Origin: Bifidobacterium xylocopae
GTDB lineage: Bacteria > Actinomycetota > Actinomycetes > Actinomycetales > Bifidobacteriaceae
Direction of reading: 5' to 3'
Length of the DNA stretch: 64,000 nt
Assembly: GCF_003315615.1 (NCBI RefSeq)
Contig: NZ_PDCH01000001.1
Location: forward strand, 186,001 to 250,000
Under the pieces are notes generated by a model that saw only the letters and a list, made by a program, of their open reading frames with translations, had not been told where the DNA came from and did not search any database. Position numbers and translations under genes: made by a program. Numbering within the stretch: the first letter of the stretch is position 1; every line of letters starts with the position of its first letter. Below are positions 9,976-21,305 of this stretch, piece after piece.

Positions 9976-10493
9976 GGGCGATTGACTTGACCGGGGCTCG
10001 GTTCGGGCGTCTCACCGTCATTGCCAAAGCTCCCAATACGTCCTATGGGACGACCCAGTGGCGGTGCAGATGCAGTTGTGGCAAAGAGACGATATCCTCG
10101 ACCTCCCATCTGAGGTGCGGGGACACCAGGAGCTGCGGCTGCCTGCATGCCGAGGTGACAGCCGGGATCAATTACAAGCACGGCGAATCCTACGGGCACG
10201 GTTCCAGGACGCGCCTTTACCGGATCTGGACGAACATGCACCAGAGGTGCGGGAACCGCAGGAACCCGGACTTCCGCAATTACGGGGCTCGTGGCATACG
10301 GGTTTGCGAGAAGTGGGCGGAATACCGCGAGTTCCGTGACTGGGCCCTCGGACACGGGTACAGGGACGATCTGACGATTGACCGGATAGACAACGATTCC
10401 GGGTATTCGCCTTCCAACTGCCGGTGGGCCGACAGGTTCACCCAGGCACGCAATAAACGCAGGACTACCAAGCATCTAAGGAGGGTCGCATGA
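9972..10493 (+). CDS. HNH-type homing endonuclease (free-standing)
   Basis: A 173-aa protein. A Cys-rich N-terminal zinc region (WRCRCSCG, CGDTRSCGCLH) precedes an HNH-like catalytic region (YRIWTNMHQRCGNRRNPDFR, YGARGIRVCEKW, TIDRIDNDSGYSPSNCRW). This layout is seen in free-standing phage homing endonucleases. It is inserted between the upstream gene and recT with 4-nt overlaps at both ends, consistent with a mobile gene that adapted to the operon. Confidence 0.8.
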   Translation: MRAIDLTGARFGRLTVIAKAPNTSYGTTQWRCRCSCGKETISSTSHLRCGDTRSCGCLHAEVTAGINYKHGESYGHGSRTRLYRIWTNMHQRCGNRRNPDFRNYGARGIRVCEKWAEYREFRDWALGHGYRDDLTIDRIDNDSGYSPSNCRWADRFTQARNKRRTTKHLRRVA

Positions 10494-13078: not shown

Positions 13079-13404
13079 TGTTCGACACTGATAAGGCCGT
13101 CAACAAGTACCGGGACTACCTCGCGGAGTATGAGGAATACGAAGACGAGGATGCGCACGCTGAAAGTCTTGAGGACTTTCGACTCGGTTACGAGCAGGCG
13201 CGGAATGACGTCTGGCTGACCGTGGACAGCATCGACGCGATGGCGAAAGTGGTCCACGAGTCGCTGCGCGATAGGGGGCTCAGCACTGCTGATGACGACT
13301 GGGATAGTGAATACGAGATAGTTCAAGACCACTACCGTGATGCCATTGAAGCAGCACTGAGGAATTACCTCTACGGTGAGAAGCCAGGAGTAAAGGAATC
13401 ATGA
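13078..13404 (+). CDS. Acidic hypothetical protein
   Basis: A 108-aa, strongly acidic and helical protein (YLAEYEEYEDEDAHAESLED). ATG 13078 overlaps the rusA TGA and its stop overlaps the next start. No family recognised. Its charge could suggest DNA mimicry, but nothing else supports that. Confidence 0.55.
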   Translation: MFDTDKAVNKYRDYLAEYEEYEDEDAHAESLEDFRLGYEQARNDVWLTVDSIDAMAKVVHESLRDRGLSTADDDWDSEYEIVQDHYRDAIEAALRNYLYGEKPGVKES

Positions 13405-14033
13405 GTGAGACGATACCAGTTTCATATCTGGTTGAATCAGGTCAATGTTCTTCGGCATGTCTACTGGCTTTAAGTAGTGATACTACCTGCTGTTCTTGTA
13501 AGTGTGGTGGAGCTTATCACGGGTCACTATCTGATGCGTTAGTTAAGCGGAACAAGGTGGCTGGACTCTGGTACGAACCTCAGGACGTAGTCATGCTTGG
13601 TAGTGATGAATTCGTTGATTTTGAACGTGGTGGAGTGAATGAGTTTAACCGTGTATACAGGCTCTCTCATGGAACATTCGGTGCTGTTATCAAACGAGGG
13701 AATCGTGATTACCAGGTTGAATTCGACCACCAGGATTCAAGAAGCGTGGCAAGTATAGAGCGCTGGGAGCACTTCTGCCGGTTCTGTGATGCTTTGCTTC
13801 TTTCCGCTCGGGTGAGATCAATTGTTTATCCGACGAGGCCGTTTGGGGAATATGAATTCTTCTTCTCTGCAACAGGTATTCCATCGTTAAAAGAGGCGAC
13901 GGTCATTCATGACGCTGCATTGAATCTCAGATATGACACTTTGAGCGACTGGACGGACAGGTTTACGCAGCGTCTGGTTCCACTGATTCAAAGAAAGGAG
14001 GTGTGCAATGACTTGGTTCAAAGTGGACGATAA
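13401..14033 (+). CDS. Hypothetical protein with N-terminal Cys cluster
   Basis: A 210-aa protein. The N-terminus has CSSACLLALSSDTTCCSCKC GGAYH-type cysteines, then an aromatic mixed domain. Its codon use is more A+T-rich than its neighbours, which suggests separate acquisition. It overlaps the next gene by 26 bp. Not recognised. Confidence 0.55.
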   Translation: MSETIPVSYLVESGQCSSACLLALSSDTTCCSCKCGGAYHGSLSDALVKRNKVAGLWYEPQDVVMLGSDEFVDFERGGVNEFNRVYRLSHGTFGAVIKRGNRDYQVEFDHQDSRSVASIERWEHFCRFCDALLLSARVRSIVYPTRPFGEYEFFFSATGIPSLKEATVIHDAALNLRYDTLSDWTDRFTQRLVPLIQRKEVCNDLVQSGR

Positions 14034-15918: not shown

Positions 15919-16076
15919 GCAGGCAGAGTAGGCAGGCCCACGCTTTGCAGGACATCAGGGACGGTGCCGACGATGGGACGATACGCGCAAAGTACGGGTA
16001 TCCGCCGGCCGTCATCCAAGCCATGAGGGACACCGTTAGGCGTGAAGTCGGATATGAGGAAGGACCGGAGTTTTGA
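15915..16076 (+). CDS. Small HTH-like protein
   Basis: A 53-aa protein. ALQDIRDGADDGTIRAKYGY then PPAVIQAMRDTVRRE reads like a short helix-turn-helix of the kind that follows DNA-entry proteins. ATG 15915 overlaps the upstream TGA; its stop overlaps TTG 16073. Confidence 0.5.
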   Translation: MSRQSRQAHALQDIRDGADDGTIRAKYGYPPAVIQAMRDTVRREVGYEEGPEF

Positions 16077-16813
16077 CCAGAGACTGCCCAGTGTGCATCG
16101 GGGCCCCACGCGGACCACTGTGCAAGGAGCACCGCCACCAGCTCGCCCGCACCCTTCACGAGCTGCGCCTGAGCATGTACGAGCTCAAGGACGCGGCCGA
16201 CCGTAAAGTCAGGCTCGGACGCCGTGGCGGGGGAGCGCGGCCAGCGTTCGCGCCCACGCCCATGGATCTGAGCGCCGCCGACCTGTACGACCAGGTGGAG
16301 GACATCATCCAGGACGTGGCCGGTGACATCGGACTGTGGGGTGGCAGGGCACCGCAGGTCCTACGCAAGCTGACCGCCAGGATCGGGCGCCTGTACGACG
16401 CGCCAAACTCGGGCCGCGACTACCGGGAGCTGGCGGACGCTTTGCGCAGGGTCGGCGAGCGCGTGTCCGCGCCAGGCGAGCGTGTCGTGTACGGACGCTG
16501 CCTCAACCCCATGTGCAAAACGGTGCTCAGTGGGCCTCCTGACGGGTTGGCAGCCACCTGCCCTGAGTGCGGGTCCACCTGGACCGTGAAAGCCCTCACA
16601 GAGGCCCGCGTGGACACTCTCAGGGGTCAGACCATCACCTGCACGCCCAAAGCTGCCGGCCAGTGGCTGGAATGGAAGACCGGCAAACGGGTGACACGCA
16701 ACCGGGTGGACATGTGGCTGCGCCGAGGCCGGCTCCCCAGTGCGCAAAGGACGGACGGGCCCGGACGTTGGACGTTTGACACGGGCGAGCTGCTGGAATG
16801 CCTGGGAGCGTAA
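16073..16813 (+). CDS. Zinc-finger plus HTH phage regulator
   Basis: A 246-aa protein starting at TTG 16073 (coupled). It has an N-terminal CPVC...CKEH cluster, a central CLNPMCKTVL...CPECGS zinc ribbon and a C-terminal MerR/excisionase-like helix-turn-helix (VTRNRVDMWLRRGRLPS). That HTH is similar to the one in the gene at 17367-17639 (VTRKNITHWIERGQMPS). Its place at the end of the early operon suggests a late-gene regulator; that is inference. Confidence 0.65.
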   Translation: MTRDCPVCIGAPRGPLCKEHRHQLARTLHELRLSMYELKDAADRKVRLGRRGGGARPAFAPTPMDLSAADLYDQVEDIIQDVAGDIGLWGGRAPQVLRKLTARIGRLYDAPNSGRDYRELADALRRVGERVSAPGERVVYGRCLNPMCKTVLSGPPDGLAATCPECGSTWTVKALTEARVDTLRGQTITCTPKAAGQWLEWKTGKRVTRNRVDMWLRRGRLPSAQRTDGPGRWTFDTGELLECLGA

Positions 16814-16920
16814 TCCCGGCTTGCATTGCAGAGGTTGTTACGCTATTTTGGATATAGTTGATTTTAGTGTAAGGGTCGGGCCGCAAGGTCCGGCCCTTCG
16901 CCGTTCCCGGGGGTGGTGCG
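16814..16920 (+). promoter_or_regulatory. Short non-coding gap with G+C hairpin
   Basis: An A+T-rich stretch (TTTTGGATATAGTTGATTTT) is followed by an imperfect inverted repeat around 16872-16900 (AAGGGTCGGGCC / GGTCCGGCCCTT). No T-run follows, so it may be a processing or attenuation hairpin, or a promoter for the next gene. Confidence 0.35.
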
Positions 16921-17370
16921 ATGAAGCGGGAAACCGTCACCTGCACCGCCTACGAACTGCCGGGCTGGCTGCGCCGGTACGCCGAATGGCGGCATTACAA
17001 GCGCTGGACCATTACCAAGGACAAAAAGCAGGACGACACCAGCCAGGCTGAGGCCGTCACCGAAGGAACCACTAGAGAGACCGTTGAAATTCCGGATAGC
17101 GCGGAGGAGCTCCGGTACAAGGAACGGGAACGCACCCGTGATCTCCTCACCGACAAATGGAGGGACCGGATCTGCCCGGTCTGCGGCGGTCGCGACTTCC
17201 AGGCCGGCGACACCATGGTTCTGCGCGACCGCTCCTACACCAGCTTCATGCCCGTCTGCCAGGTCATCTGCCTGGCGTGCGGGCACACGATGCTCTTCAA
17301 CGCGCTCGTCCTGGGCGTTAAGACCGCCCAGGACTACACCGCACGACGAATGGACGGAGACAGGGTGTGA
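16921..17370 (+). CDS. Hypothetical zinc-ribbon protein
   Basis: A 149-aa protein. The last 60 residues hold CPVCGG and CLACGH, four cysteines of a zinc ribbon. The N-terminal half is charged (ELRYKERERTRDLL). ATG 16921 follows GGGGGTGGTGCG. Its stop overlaps GTG 17367. Confidence 0.55.
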   Translation: MKRETVTCTAYELPGWLRRYAEWRHYKRWTITKDKKQDDTSQAEAVTEGTTRETVEIPDSAEELRYKERERTRDLLTDKWRDRICPVCGGRDFQAGDTMVLRDRSYTSFMPVCQVICLACGHTMLFNALVLGVKTAQDYTARRMDGDRV

Positions 17371-17639
17371 ACGTCGAAACGAGCGCTATGGACATCCGAG
17401 ACATCACATTCGGTCGTATCGCGGTCGGGCCGGTCACCCAGGGCGACATCGCCGTGCCCGGCATCAAGGTCACGAGGAAGAACATCACCCACTGGATCGA
17501 GCGAGGGCAAATGCCCAGCCTTAAGTCGTTGGAGGAGGGCTGGTATGAGTTCAGCATCGGCGAGCTAGTGGCTTTGGCTGAGAAGCTTGATGCGAGGCGG
17601 TTGCTTGCGGGCCGCGCCGACCGTATCACTGCAAGATAG
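17367..17639 (+). CDS. MerR/excisionase-like HTH protein
   Basis: A 90-aa protein starting at GTG 17367 (coupled) or at ATG 17388. KVTRKNITHWIERGQMPS followed by FSIGELVALAEKL is a winged HTH. It is paralogous to the C-terminus of the 16073-16813 product. It is the last rightward gene before the accessory island. Confidence 0.65.
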   Translation: MNVETSAMDIRDITFGRIAVGPVTQGDIAVPGIKVTRKNITHWIERGQMPSLKSLEEGWYEFSIGELVALAEKLDARRLLAGRADRITAR

Positions 17640-17670
17640 GCATAGGTGTTACGCACTTGTGCATGTATAG

Positions 17671-17934
17671 TTATATCGACATACTGGTGTTGGTCATTCT
17701 GCAGAAGCCGTGCCAACTATCATGAAACCCGATCATCAGCGTTTCAAAGTCGTCTCTGGTGATGCGTCCTTGGAGGTTTGTGAATGTGCTTATTGGGTGC
17801 CAGTCGTGAAGGATCGCTTGACAAAACAGACAGTTATATTTTAGGTTTACATTGCTCTCATTAAGTGTGGGGATGGTTGTGAATGGCAGTCTTATTAATT
17901 GTCCTAGTGCCGCGAGGTGTGTGATTTGATGCGT
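17671..17934 (-). pseudogene. Protein-like 3' fragment at the left edge of the accessory island
   Basis: About 88 codons are open leftward to TAA 17671-17673 and read as plausible protein: LGQLIRLPFTTIPTLNESNV, NLKYNCLFCQAILHDWHPIS, RITRDDFETLMIGFHDSWHG. There is no ATG, GTG or TTG near its 5' end, and it stops being open where the sce7726-type gene begins. It looks like the tail of a leftward gene truncated by the island. The family is not recognised. Confidence 0.5.
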
Positions 17935-18585
17935 TCAGCAAGCGCTGAGAGAATGCATGACGCCGATGTCCGGCAGGCCACATGGGCTATGATTAATCGC
18001 TGCAAAAGCAACAATGGGCCCGACGTACTCAAACTTGATGAGTTCGCCCTATGTAGTGAAGTTCGGGCCGACATCACTGTCATCAACGGGCATATGACCG
18101 GATACGAGCTGAAAAGTGCGAGCGATAATCTTAAGAGGCTACCCAAACAGGTATCCTTCTATTCGAAGGTGCTGGATTACTGCAATCTAGTGGTTGCAGA
18201 GAATCATTTCGATAGAGCTCTTCAGTTGTTACCCTCATCGTGGGGGATTTATATAGCAAAGGGCACAAAGAAGGGTTCTCTTCATATTCGCAGATACAGG
18301 ACTGCACGGATTGATAGAAGCATGTTTGACGCGAGGCTGGCAGTGGAGCTACTCTGGCGCGACGAAGCCTTGGACATACTCACCCAGTATGGATATGACA
18401 GAGGGGTCAGATCTCTGACGAGACCTTTCATCTGGGATAGGATGGTAGAACGATTCACCCCATCCCAGATCAGACAACTTGTACGGCATCAGCTCAAATC
18501 ACGCCAGCATTGGAGAGTTGTCTCACCACATATGCCAGATGATGAGAGCTGCTCCACTTCAGCCACTGACTGCCTGAACCGGTAG
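17929..18585 (+). CDS. sce7726-family protein, PD-(D/E)xK-like nuclease
   Basis: A 218-aa protein. RADITVINGHMTGYELKS (Asp48, Glu60-x-Lys62) followed by RLPKQ (Gln74) is a PD-(D/E)xK nuclease pattern, and the whole length resembles the uncharacterised sce7726 family. ATG 17929 has GAGG about 11 nt upstream; GTG 17917 is possible. It converges on the Beta-family gene, overlapping it by 92 bp at the 3' ends. Its codon use is more A+T-rich than the phage genes. I infer a defence or exclusion role together with the convergent gene. Confidence 0.75.
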   Translation: MRSASAERMHDADVRQATWAMINRCKSNNGPDVLKLDEFALCSEVRADITVINGHMTGYELKSASDNLKRLPKQVSFYSKVLDYCNLVVAENHFDRALQLLPSSWGIYIAKGTKKGSLHIRRYRTARIDRSMFDARLAVELLWRDEALDILTQYGYDRGVRSLTRPFIWDRMVERFTPSQIRQLVRHQLKSRQHWRVVSPHMPDDESCSTSATDCLNR

Positions 18586-19630
18586 GGATGGGGACTTTTT
18601 TGGCACTGATAGCAGCAGGATAGTCATATTGCGCAGCCAAATGGAATTTCGAATCCCCTTCAGAAAATTGAGGATTGTCAACTATCCTTGTTTTTATCAA
18701 CTGATTCGAAATTTTATATATGCCGGTTCCGGGGTGATACTTATTTGAACTTTTCCCCCTAACCAACACCCATCTATCATCTTGAGTATAGCGGATATTG
18801 GGAGCTGGGCTTCCGAACGAGTTATTACTCATCTTTGGGTTGAAGACCGAGTAATCACCGTAAAGAATGGCATTGTATTTATTCCTTATGCTTTTCCAGA
18901 CTGCGTATTCACGGCGGAAATGGAATGCCATATTGCCTAAAGGGAGTCCTCCAGGTGGCGGCACTCGAGCAGTATCTTTGACGAAAGAAATCTGTTGTGG
19001 GAATGATCCACCAAGCATGAAAATCTGATAAAACCTATCAATCAGTTGATGAGTTGATAATTCTTTCAATATATTCATGCACAAGCGGCCCGCTTCTAAT
19101 ACGACGCTCTCATTCGCGCAGTCATTCCCAGAGTCAGTTTTCGTGTCATGACCATGGATATAACCTAAGTCAAGGATCAGACTAACTGGCATACCTGATT
19201 TAACAGTCGTCTTATTCAATAAGCTTTGCAGGTCTCGGACTAAAGCATTCGGCACTTGCCGGCCACTCAACTTCACGCGAACCGCCACGAAAGAAGGCTT
19301 TAACGTGGATGTGATCGTGGAGAAATCGCCCGGGGAAGTACCCAAAGGCATGCTAATCCCAAAGCTGTTCTGCATTTGACTGGGGACGCTCAAGTCCTTG
19401 ATGATGCTTATCGATTTCGGAGTGATGGTATCCCCGAGATCCACGCACAGATTTACTTGATTATTCGTTTTCAGCAGCCTTGTAAGGTTATTAAAAGTAT
19501 CGGAAACTCTACCATCGGACAAGACAAGAGCGATAATTTTGTCAAGCTCACTTTGTTTAAGGTCATTAAGCGCACCTAGCTCGCTTGCTCTGGGATGTAC
19601 AGCTGATAAATATGCTTTTTGCCGGATCAT
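18494..19630 (-). CDS. Beta-family protein (partner of sce7726-type gene)
   Basis: A 378-aa protein. SLILDLGYIHGHDTKTDSG, FHFRREYAVWKSIRNKYNAI LYGDY-type blocks and a late GTGIYKISNQ region fit the Beta protein family (as I recall, Pfam Beta_protein). ATG 19630 has a strong AAAGGAGA SD. It is A+T-rich relative to its surroundings and transcribed against the late genes. Beta-type and sce7726-type genes are commonly found together; the joint function is undescribed to my knowledge. Confidence 0.72.
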   Translation of the reverse strand: MIRQKAYLSAVHPRASELGALNDLKQSELDKIIALVLSDGRVSDTFNNLTRLLKTNNQVNLCVDLGDTITPKSISIIKDLSVPSQMQNSFGISMPLGTSPGDFSTITSTLKPSFVAVRVKLSGRQVPNALVRDLQSLLNKTTVKSGMPVSLILDLGYIHGHDTKTDSGNDCANESVVLEAGRLCMNILKELSTHQLIDRFYQIFMLGGSFPQQISFVKDTARVPPPGGLPLGNMAFHFRREYAVWKSIRNKYNAILYGDYSVFNPKMSNNSFGSPAPNIRYTQDDRWVLVRGKSSNKYHPGTGIYKISNQLIKTRIVDNPQFSEGDSKFHLAAQYDYPAAISAKKVPIPTGSGSQWLKWSSSHHLAYVVRQLSNAGVI

Positions 19631-20110
19631 GCTTCTCCTTTGATAGTAGGACCACAACAACTCCTATCTTAGGGCACAGTGCTTCATCACTCCATTCTGA
19701 TCAGATAGGCGCTTCGCAATCCTCTACGACGACTGCGTGACCGAGTTTATGAGCGCGCACATAACAGGCAACCCGAAGGGGCCACTGCGAATCTCATTGC
19801 CAGAATCACATACATGGAACGACCTGATGATGTAACTTAGGATGCGACCCGCGCCGCGGGCATGCCCACCCACGACTATCTGACCCCGCCTCACGGCACG
19901 GCTACATCCCCTGGCTCCCCACCCAGGTCGAGCTCCTGTCCGACCAGTGGCAGCTCTGCGACGCGACCGGCAAGCCCATCGGCTGACCAACACTTGCCCG
20001 CAGTCCTTCACTTACTTCCCCGCGGGCACCCCGCTTGCGCGGCGGCCTCCACGGCGAGAGGCAGGCCAAACCGAAAGCCGTGGACGGGTGTCCAAGCCTT
20101 CCACGCCGTG
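19631..20110. other. Non-coding stretch with two gene remnants
   Basis: No intact gene is visible in these 480 bases. Rightward, 19701-19835 is open and ends RISLPESHTWNDLMM. At 19862-19986 two frames joined by a -1 shift give MPTHDYLTPPHG and then YIPWLPTQVELLSDQWQLCD plus ATGKPIG. Both look like 3' ends of phage genes damaged when the island was acquired. Nothing was recognised in 19987-20110. Confidence 0.5.
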
Positions 20111-20299
20111 CTACCGCTTGCGAGGTCTTCCACCATGGCCAGGACGCTGAGAGTCCCAAGCCTCGATGGTGTGGGGCTCCCACCCACGGATTGTGCCTAT
20201 GGTCGCGTCCGGGGGTGGGAGCTTGTAGCCCGCGAGCGCGCTTTTGCTGATGCCCAGCTGCTGAGCCACTTGGGTGAGGGAGAGGTAGTGTCTGGTCAC
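20111..20299 (-). CDS. Small HTH protein
   Basis: A 62-aa protein from GTG 20299. LSLTQVAQQLGISKSALAGY is a clear helix-turn-helix, and the C-terminus is basic (GRPRKR). Its start overlaps the stop of the upstream 52-aa gene (GTGA), so the two are coupled. It may regulate its leftward operon or the late promoter region. Confidence 0.65.
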   Translation of the reverse strand: MTRHYLSLTQVAQQLGISKSALAGYKLPPPDATIGTIRGWEPHTIEAWDSQRPGHGGRPRKR

Positions 20300-20454
20300 T
20301 GGTGTGGGTCCTTGTGGATGGATGTTGCGAGTCCGAAGCCTCCCGCTGCGAGCGCGAAGAGCCCACCGCTCCAGGGCACTGATCCGAGCGAACAGATGAG
20401 GCCTGCGATCCCGCAGGCGAGGCTGGCGATACCCATATAGGTTTTACTTGTCAT
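20296..20454 (-). CDS. 52-aa membrane protein
   Basis: ATG 20454 opens MTSKTYMGIASLACGIAGLI, then a second hydrophobic segment (GGLFALAAGGFGLAT). It has two short membrane helices. It is translationally coupled to the downstream HTH gene. Function unknown. Confidence 0.55.
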   Translation of the reverse strand: MTSKTYMGIASLACGIAGLICSLGSVPWSGGLFALAAGGFGLATSIHKDPHQ

Positions 20455-20480
20455 AGTGTGCCATGAGATAGGATTGGGGC

Positions 20481-20518
20481 GGGGTTCCGGATACTAGGTT
20501 TATTCGGAACCCCTTTTG
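20481..20518 (+). terminator. Rho-independent terminator (rightward)
   Basis: GGGGTTCCG and CGGAACCCC form a perfect 9-bp stem with a 15-nt loop and TTTT after it. It would stop rightward read-through from the early region before the packaging genes. Confidence 0.7.
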
Positions 20519-20519
20519 G

Positions 20520-20618
20520 TTACTTGCCTTGGTGGGTGATGTCGTGTATGAGCACGGCCACGGCTATGAGCGTGGTTATCACCGAGCTGACGGCTTGTAT
20601 CCAATCCGTTATCTTCAT
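20520..20618 (-). CDS. 32-aa membrane peptide
   Basis: ATG 20618 has a full AGGAGGTG SD 4 nt upstream. The product is MKITDWIQAVSSVITTLIAV plus AVLIHDITHQGK, a single hydrophobic helix. It is leftward and just upstream of the two other leftward small genes, though a rightward terminator separates them. Confidence 0.6.
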   Translation of the reverse strand: MKITDWIQAVSSVITTLIAVAVLIHDITHQGK

Positions 20619-20703
20619 GTTCACCTCCTTTCTTTGCTGACATTAATATAATAACTCAGTTCTGTAATTAAGGCAAGGCGACACGACAGAAAGAACGGGA
20701 AAC

Positions 20704-20916
20704 ATGCCGGAACCAGCACTCAGAAAACATATCGTCGAGCCACCAGCAAACAACCAGCTACACGGCATCGAGCATCAGCTCACGCGCATAGCCGACACCA
20801 TGTCAGGCCAAAGCATGCAAATCGACCGCGACGATGCACTCAAAGCCTGGCCGCTGCGCGTCTACCAAGACGAATACTTAAGAGCCTTGCAAGACCTAGG
20901 CATTGAGCTGCTCTGA
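20704..20916 (+). CDS. Small hypothetical protein upstream of HNH
   Basis: A 70-aa helical protein (EHQLTRIADTMSGQSMQIDR). It is coupled to the HNH gene by ATG-TGA overlap at 20914-20918. In many siphophages such a gene begins the late operon. No domain. Confidence 0.55.
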   Translation: MPEPALRKHIVEPPANNQLHGIEHQLTRIADTMSGQSMQIDRDDALKAWPLRVYQDEYLRALQDLGIELL

Positions 20917-21305
20917 TGCCCATAAGGCCACAAGGCAGGTGCACCAAGGCAGGCTGCAAAGCCAAAGCCGTCACGATGGGGCGCTGCGCCGACCATCAGC
21001 CCAAACCATGGGCCAGGCCATCCGCGCACACACAGACCATCGACCACGCAAGATGGAGCGTCGCCAGGCAGGCCGCACTAGCCAGGGACGGACGCCAATG
21101 CGTGCGTTGCGGGGCCAAAGCCACCGAGGTCGACCACATCTGGGAGGTCGCCGACGGCGGCAGCCTCTACGGCACAAGCAACCTACAGTCACTGTGCCAT
21201 GCATGCCACCAAGCCAAGACAGCCATCGCCAGACGCAGACGCGCCGGCGACACCGGTGAGCCAAGCCTCGCGGCTCGCCTGTTCGACCAAATCGAAGGCG
21301 ACTGA
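20916..21305 (+). CDS. HNH endonuclease next to terminase
   Basis: A 129-aa protein with CVRCGAKATEVDHIWEVADG and NLQSLCHACH, the CxxC...DH...N...CxxC HNH core. An HNH protein beside terminase is characteristic of HK97-like phages, where it supports specific DNA cleavage by terminase at cos sites. An N-terminal zinc cluster (CTKAGC, CADH) is also present. Confidence 0.88.
   Translation: MPIRPQGRCTKAGCKAKAVTMGRCADHQPKPWARPSAHTQTIDHARWSVARQAALARDGRQCVRCGAKATEVDHIWEVADGGSLYGTSNLQSLCHACHQAKTAIARRRRAGDTGEPSLAARLFDQIEGD

Follow-up and report, generated by a model that had tools for sequence, protein, structure and literature searches.

A prophage of Bifidobacterium xylocopae carries two intact, convergent genes, overlapping at their 3' ends, for an sce7726-family PD-(D/E)xK nuclease and a Beta-family protein, the families of cII and beta in the gop-beta-cII system of phage P4. 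Since gop is absent from the window (the whole 64,000-nt stretch analysed, from contig NZ_PDCH01000001.1), the pair would be a two-gene variant of the gop-beta-cII kind and, by analogy with that system, it is probably a prophage-borne superinfection defence module of the beta-cII type.

Two convergent genes share 92 bp

The nuclease gene (ORF A, 17929-18585, plus strand) encodes 218 aa and the Beta gene (ORF B, 19630-18494, minus strand) 378 aa. Their tail-to-tail overlap spans 92 bp (18494-18585), with the Beta stop at 18494-18496, written by the codons for Leu189-Lys190 of the nuclease and located 8 nt before its invariant Arg192 codon. The longest open frames start with GTG for ORF A (17917-18585, plus) and TTG for ORF B (18494-19660, minus), but ATG 17929, behind GAGGTG, and ATG 19630, behind AAAGGAG, are likelier starts than GTG 17917 and TTG 19660. 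The G+C content is 0.43-0.50 over the pair and mostly 0.58-0.71 in the flanks, in agreement with a previous examination of the DNA letters (hereafter, the sequence-only reading) that had described A+T-richer genes facing each other and sharing 92 bp at their 3' ends. This low G+C is not unique, because the flanks contain other dips at about 13.0-14.7 kb (0.48-0.56), 15.25-16 kb (0.52) and 20.25-21 kb (0.53). An A+T-richer ORF of 210 aa (13401-14033, plus; G+C about 0.48), between recombination and replication genes, gave no PHROGs match. No terminator was listed in the 92-bp overlap, the counts of promoter-like and terminator-like motifs being close to shuffled levels, and no RNA family reached its gathering threshold between positions 10000 and 30000.

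ORF A matched the sce7726 profile NF033832 with 147.7 bits (cut-off 70; profile positions 1-183 of 184) and the PADLOC model cll at 9.5e-20. Residues E38, D48, E60, K62 and Q74, numbered from 17929, did not vary among 91 aligned sequences, that of the window included; the PD-(D/E)xK residue test for sce7726 membership, which is our own criterion and not the curators', thus found E38, D48, E60-x-K62 and Q74 in ORF A, and restriction-endonuclease-like entries were also matched. The PD-(D/E)xK pattern and the sce7726 assignment proposed from the letters were therefore borne out. Sequence comparisons returned no relative of solved structure for the nuclease, and our literature search found no paper with a function for sce7726 in its title. 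The nuclease tail past residue 200, wholly coded in the overlap, was predicted with low confidence; on the nuclease side, the overlap may therefore be passive.

ORF B matched PF14350 (Beta_protein) with 87.3 bits (gathering cut-off 27; profile positions 1-342 of 342), in support of the earlier suggestion of a Beta-family resemblance, and the PADLOC models PD-Lambda-2_C (6e-22) and beta (3e-5). Matches to Sa_NUDIX, Tox-REase-9 and Specificity_I fell below their cut-offs and were ignored as weak. Beta is predicted to fold as a TIM barrel. Residues D154, D259 and H364 were invariant in the alignment, and D64, P95 and R239 nearly so; in the model, D64, P95 and D259 lie at strand ends, R239 after a strand and D154 inside one. 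A barrel with these conserved positions would suit an enzyme producing or degrading a small-molecule signal that the nuclease senses, in a CBASS-like logic. We regard this reading as unlikely: no solved-structure relative of Beta was found by sequence, with just two weak matches to designed proteins, the structure matches of the barrel were numerous and unspecific, and profile searches recognised no signal-binding domain on the nuclease.

Relationship to gop-beta-cII and PD-lambda-2

According to Rousset 2022 (PMC9122126), gop-beta-cII confers protection on E. coli against lambda and P1 when the genes are cloned as a set; the paper also describes gop, citing Ghisotti 1990, as toxic without beta, and beta as countering Gop toxicity. 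The P4 record (NC_001609) annotates cII as 'sce7726 family' and beta as 'beta family', with both genes convergent and gop before beta, and the P4 proteins match the same PADLOC models as the window pair. The claim that the function of the pair had not been described is thus not sustained at the level of the families, because sce7726 corresponds to P4 cII and Beta to P4 beta, and PMC9122126 presents gop-beta-cII as tested against phages. Conversely, the defence or exclusion role proposed in the sequence-only reading appears right by analogy, both families matching the tested system.

The window pair resembles that of P4 in its two families, which are adjacent and convergent, and in being mobile-element cargo, a site type that PMC9122126 describes for P4. 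It differs in lacking gop, in its 92-bp overlap as compared with a 27-bp gap, and in residing in a prophage and not in a satellite phage; identities are only 24% for cII and 21% for beta. P4 cII is, moreover, much extended at its C terminus relative to the window nuclease. Within the family P4 (L002:1-2540) is itself an outlier, on account of its gap, its extended cII and its extra gop.

The absence of gop could alternatively mean that the system is incomplete, a gop-beta-cII remnant minus its Gop effector that is inactive alone or needs an unlinked effector. Indeed, it is to Gop that toxicity has been ascribed (PMC9122126), and Gop is missing from the whole genome, where the best match (E 0.076) covered a 38-residue stretch of a 737-aa frame; the fetched flanks of the window locus contained no gop either. 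However, neither ORF is interrupted, the catalytic-type residues are all in place, and gop-less pairs are the common form in our survey. There, Gop was detected at a single fetched locus among 175, that of P4, with flanks reaching 5 kb at most and often far less, making an incomplete system decidedly unlikely.

PD-lambda-2 comprises a HigB-like protein, a HigA/peptidase protein and a P4-antitoxin-related protein, the C component, which is needed for lambda-vir defence and not for toxin neutralisation, according to Vassallo et al. 2022 (PMC9519451). The window Beta belongs to the family of this C component, but no A-like or B-like gene was found upstream of it, and it faces a convergent nuclease, of a kind absent from the three components given in PMC9519451. 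The cII/beta pair of the Rac-SA53 prophage (KU052037) is likewise convergent and overlapping, with no gop annotated nearby or found and a nuclease 40% identical to that of the window, although its overlap is of 41 bp, its host is E. coli and its genes are annotated as hypothetical. The same pair occurs in Gordonia phages DumpsterDude and Powerball and in Mycolicibacterium phage Mycofy1, with overlaps of 89, 89 and 107 bp, respectively, but their Beta proteins are 17-18% identical to ours and their neighbours include lysis, HicAB-like or integrase genes. We found no paper on a gop-less beta-cII pair or its phenotype in the literature searched, preprints and most subscription papers being outside its scope.

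The pair is cargo of a prophage

The prophage genes follow a rightward order, from RecT-like (10490) and replication initiator (14008) genes to HNH (20916), terminase (21898) and tail-like (37050) genes. This prophage is also represented in IMG/VR, by a contig of 44,476 bases (L096), with 100% identity over the 10,666 bases compared, which maps to approximately -898 to 43577 of the window. On the left, the pair is flanked by a conserved gene of unassigned function (16073-16813, plus), recognised by its match to phrog_908 and by its presence in sister prophages; on the right, the conserved flank is the HNH endonuclease gene preceding the terminase (20916-21305, plus; PF01844, 37.6 bits), colinear in the sister prophage of genome G405. 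Two sister prophages, in G405 and G396, align with the window to 16898 and resume at 20758 and 20738, respectively, with 0.51-0.55 kb in place of 3.8 kb; from this and from the start of the gene remnant described below, at about 19831, the accessory insertion would extend over approximately 16899-19830. Judging by these alignments, the pair is prophage cargo, with a site occupied in some sister prophages and unoccupied in others, and the earlier view of an accessory element interrupting the rightward phage order holds.

The segment 19831-19977 (plus), of about 50 C-terminal codons, had DNA-level matches in G414, G410 and G409 and aligned with the C-terminal part of the gene that immediately follows phrog_908 in G410 and G409 (43% and 40% identity, respectively; E 2e-7); the last two genomes, whose gene order departs from that of the window past the remnant gene on the right, served solely to identify it. 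As this segment is the 3' end of the gene after phrog_908, the remainder of that gene was apparently lost to the insertion, the module taking the place of part of a prophage gene. The truncated remnants proposed for both sides were hence recovered on the right, whereas the left one (17671-17934, minus) is unproven, searches of Pfam, PHROGs, the phage collection and 26 other genomes of the genus having returned nothing for it. Only short repeats bound the insert.

Three small ORFs occupy the minus strand between the pair and the HNH gene (20111-20647): one for a 62-aa HTH protein (phrog_597, 2.1e-20, profile positions 108-173 of 200), another for a DUF4190-like membrane protein of about 54 aa (below cut-off), and a third for a hydrophobic peptide of about 33 aa. 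At the same cargo site and also against phage transcription, the G405 sister prophage contains a 115-aa ORF with a hydrophobic stretch (L189:10458-10805, plus), whose start resembles, by eye, the peptide of about 33 aa.

The location of the pair between replication and packaging genes raises the alternative that it contributes to recombination, packaging or host take-over by the prophage itself, and not to defence. PD-(D/E)xK enzymes often act in recombination, and the annotation in Powerball reads 'exonuclease'. We nevertheless consider phage housekeeping very improbable, given that the two sister prophages lack the pair at the same place, that Beta runs against phage transcription, that a related pair (L016, see below) lies near a methylase gene, and that P4 beta and cII are called non-essential in PMC9122126.

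Beta and sce7726 genes are joined tail to tail

Among genome contigs, a pattern scan seeded with sce7726 alone yielded at least 519 relatives, and among viral contigs 160; we retained the best 80 of each, sets that favour sce7726 proteins close to that of the window; Beta neighbours were sought with an iterated Beta profile. Beta adjoined sce7726 in 71 of the best 80 genome loci and 77 of the best 80 viral loci, that is, in 148 of 160, so that the co-occurrence in other genomes on which the sequence-only reading depended was indeed found. All 148 adjacent pairs of the best-80 sets were convergent, one of them (L096) being this same prophage. Among the 12 loci without Beta, four were at a contig end (L034, L047, L065 and L167), with a Beta fragment in L047. 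This leaves 8 of 160 loci, none at a contig end, with no detectable Beta; two of these 8 probably belong to a single Xenorhabdus contig.

From 175 fetched loci, 158 contained both genes (17 were dropped) and collapsed at 60% Beta identity into 97 clusters, including that of the window. The genes overlap in 93 clusters, are separated by a gap in three, P4 among them, and stand in tandem in one (L009). The median overlap was 53 bp, and its length equalled 2 modulo 3, a single frame, in 87 of the 96 convergent clusters. Relative to the codon for the invariant C-terminal Arg of the nuclease, the Beta stop fell at +8 nt in 40 of 95 clusters, +2 in 18, +20 in nine, -12 in six and +14 in five, the other 17 being scattered between -276 and +59. 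The paired loci presumably represent Actinomycetota, Pseudomonadota, Bacteroidota, Bacillota, Acidobacteriota, Myxococcota, Nitrospirota, Planctomycetota, Gemmatimonadota, Chloroflexota, Elusimicrobiota, Gastranaerophilales and a CPR MAG, as taken from record titles, with possible MAG binning errors. A convergent overlap that keeps its frame over so many phyla would seem unusual in itself. Together, the shared frame and stop position point to one ancestral junction, which would have been kept as the pair moved among lineages. Distances between nucleases correlated with those between Beta proteins (r = 0.53 over 87 pairs, a value reached in 0 of 1000 permutations), a correlation that would also arise from joint inheritance alone.

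Solo copies of both genes exist and count against tight pairing. A Beta-seeded search of 398 genomes from the phylum of L020 (Aeromonas) was positive in 13 genomes; excluding the seed genome, there were 15 Beta places in 12 genomes, 10 with a convergent sce7726 and five without, two of these five being fragments. Among 396 Actinomycetota genomes, our own included, sce7726 appeared in five and Beta in three. The four other sce7726 places comprised one with a convergent Beta, one with a tandem Beta-like gene, detected with our own profile only and with no Pfam or PADLOC match as Beta, and two with none, one at a contig end. Within the genus, sce7726 was present in 2 of 27 genomes, the other being G408, with a 59% identical protein, no Beta and an integrase-like ORF (named by eye) downstream. 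Phages Mx4 and MT835757 also contain sce7726 ORFs without detectable Beta. These solo copies could suggest two independent genes that merely travel together, but the convergence of every adjacent pair in the best-80 sets, the overlap in 93 of 97 clusters and its single frame in 87 of 96 make this extremely unlikely. With respect to the criterion for type II toxin-antitoxin systems, sce7726 genes without an adjacent Beta do exist (Beta was sought at the locus only), and a strict toxin-antitoxin reading is weakened by the solo copies in G408, in 8 of the 160 loci, and in Mx4 and MT835757.

Third genes accompany some pairs

A PD-lambda-2 B-like gene was found upstream of Beta in 11 of the 97 clusters, six of them with a second, A-like small gene. 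In the examples scanned, L083 contained PD-Lambda-2_B with Peptidase_M78 and L076 contained PD-Lambda-2_A with HigB_toxin, and the Beta and nuclease of L083 scored as PD-Lambda-2_C and cll. By these matches, some PD-lambda-2-type operons include the convergent nuclease, at a frequency that is not derivable from our sce7726-seeded set. In L096, neither a B-like gene (within 600 bp) nor an A-like gene (within 2.5 kb) was found upstream of Beta, and the small ORFs upstream of the window Beta match other families or nothing.

Small membrane proteins, considered as Gop analogues, were not enriched upstream of Beta: by crude hydropathy and gene calls, a transmembrane gene of up to 200 aa lay within 250 bp upstream in 3 of 96 clusters, one being Gop, against a background of 98 in 773 small ORFs. 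Other recurrent neighbours within 2.5 kb of 96 representatives, named by eye, were small Xre-type regulators (seven), integrase-like (six) and resolvase-like (six) genes, which we did not count as parts because they are in keeping with mobile elements and show no fixed link to the upstream side and strand of Beta. Smaller neighbour families recur in three to five loci each. In Bifidobacterium sp. ESL0784 (L016, 78-8976), the nearest named relative with Beta (55%), the pair is bordered on one side, beyond a single intervening ORF, by a gene for an SNF2-type helicase and on the other by one for an Eco57I-type methylase.

Discussion

We infer that the sce7726/cII protein would act as the effector, a PD-(D/E)xK nuclease that presumably cleaves DNA. 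Beta, with its predicted TIM barrel, may be a sensor or regulator keeping the nuclease inactive until another phage infects or, alternatively, may make or bind a signal that activates it upon infection. This division of labour between an effector nuclease and a sensing or controlling Beta is conceivable at somewhat less than even chances, and its strict toxin-antitoxin form is the weakest part of the mechanism, given the solo nucleases. As the genes converge, each needs its own promoter; the common 3' end would keep them together, and their transcripts may damp each other.

Since Gop was found only in P4 among the 175 loci and B-like genes in 11 of 97 clusters, beta-cII looks like a core that has gained toxin genes. 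More tentatively, beta-cII might be a self-sufficient two-gene immune core that occurs in roughly a dozen phyla and is ancestral to gop-beta-cII and PD-lambda-2, both of which would have originated when toxin genes were added, with a TIM-barrel sensor or enzyme governing the nuclease and the overlap itself functional through antisense coupling of effector and regulator.

Both families were already known through gop-beta-cII and PD-lambda-2; what is new here is the adjacency and tail-to-tail geometry of Beta and sce7726, the frame of their overlap, and the restriction of gop to P4 among 175 loci. The separately named gop-beta-cII and PD-lambda-2 share their Beta component, some PD-lambda-2-type operons, at least, also carry a gene for a cII-type nuclease, and gop is rare. 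The role of cII, for which our literature search yielded no test, thereby becomes directly testable, and we suggest that convergent 'sce7726 family' and 'Beta family' pairs be annotated as likely defence loci.
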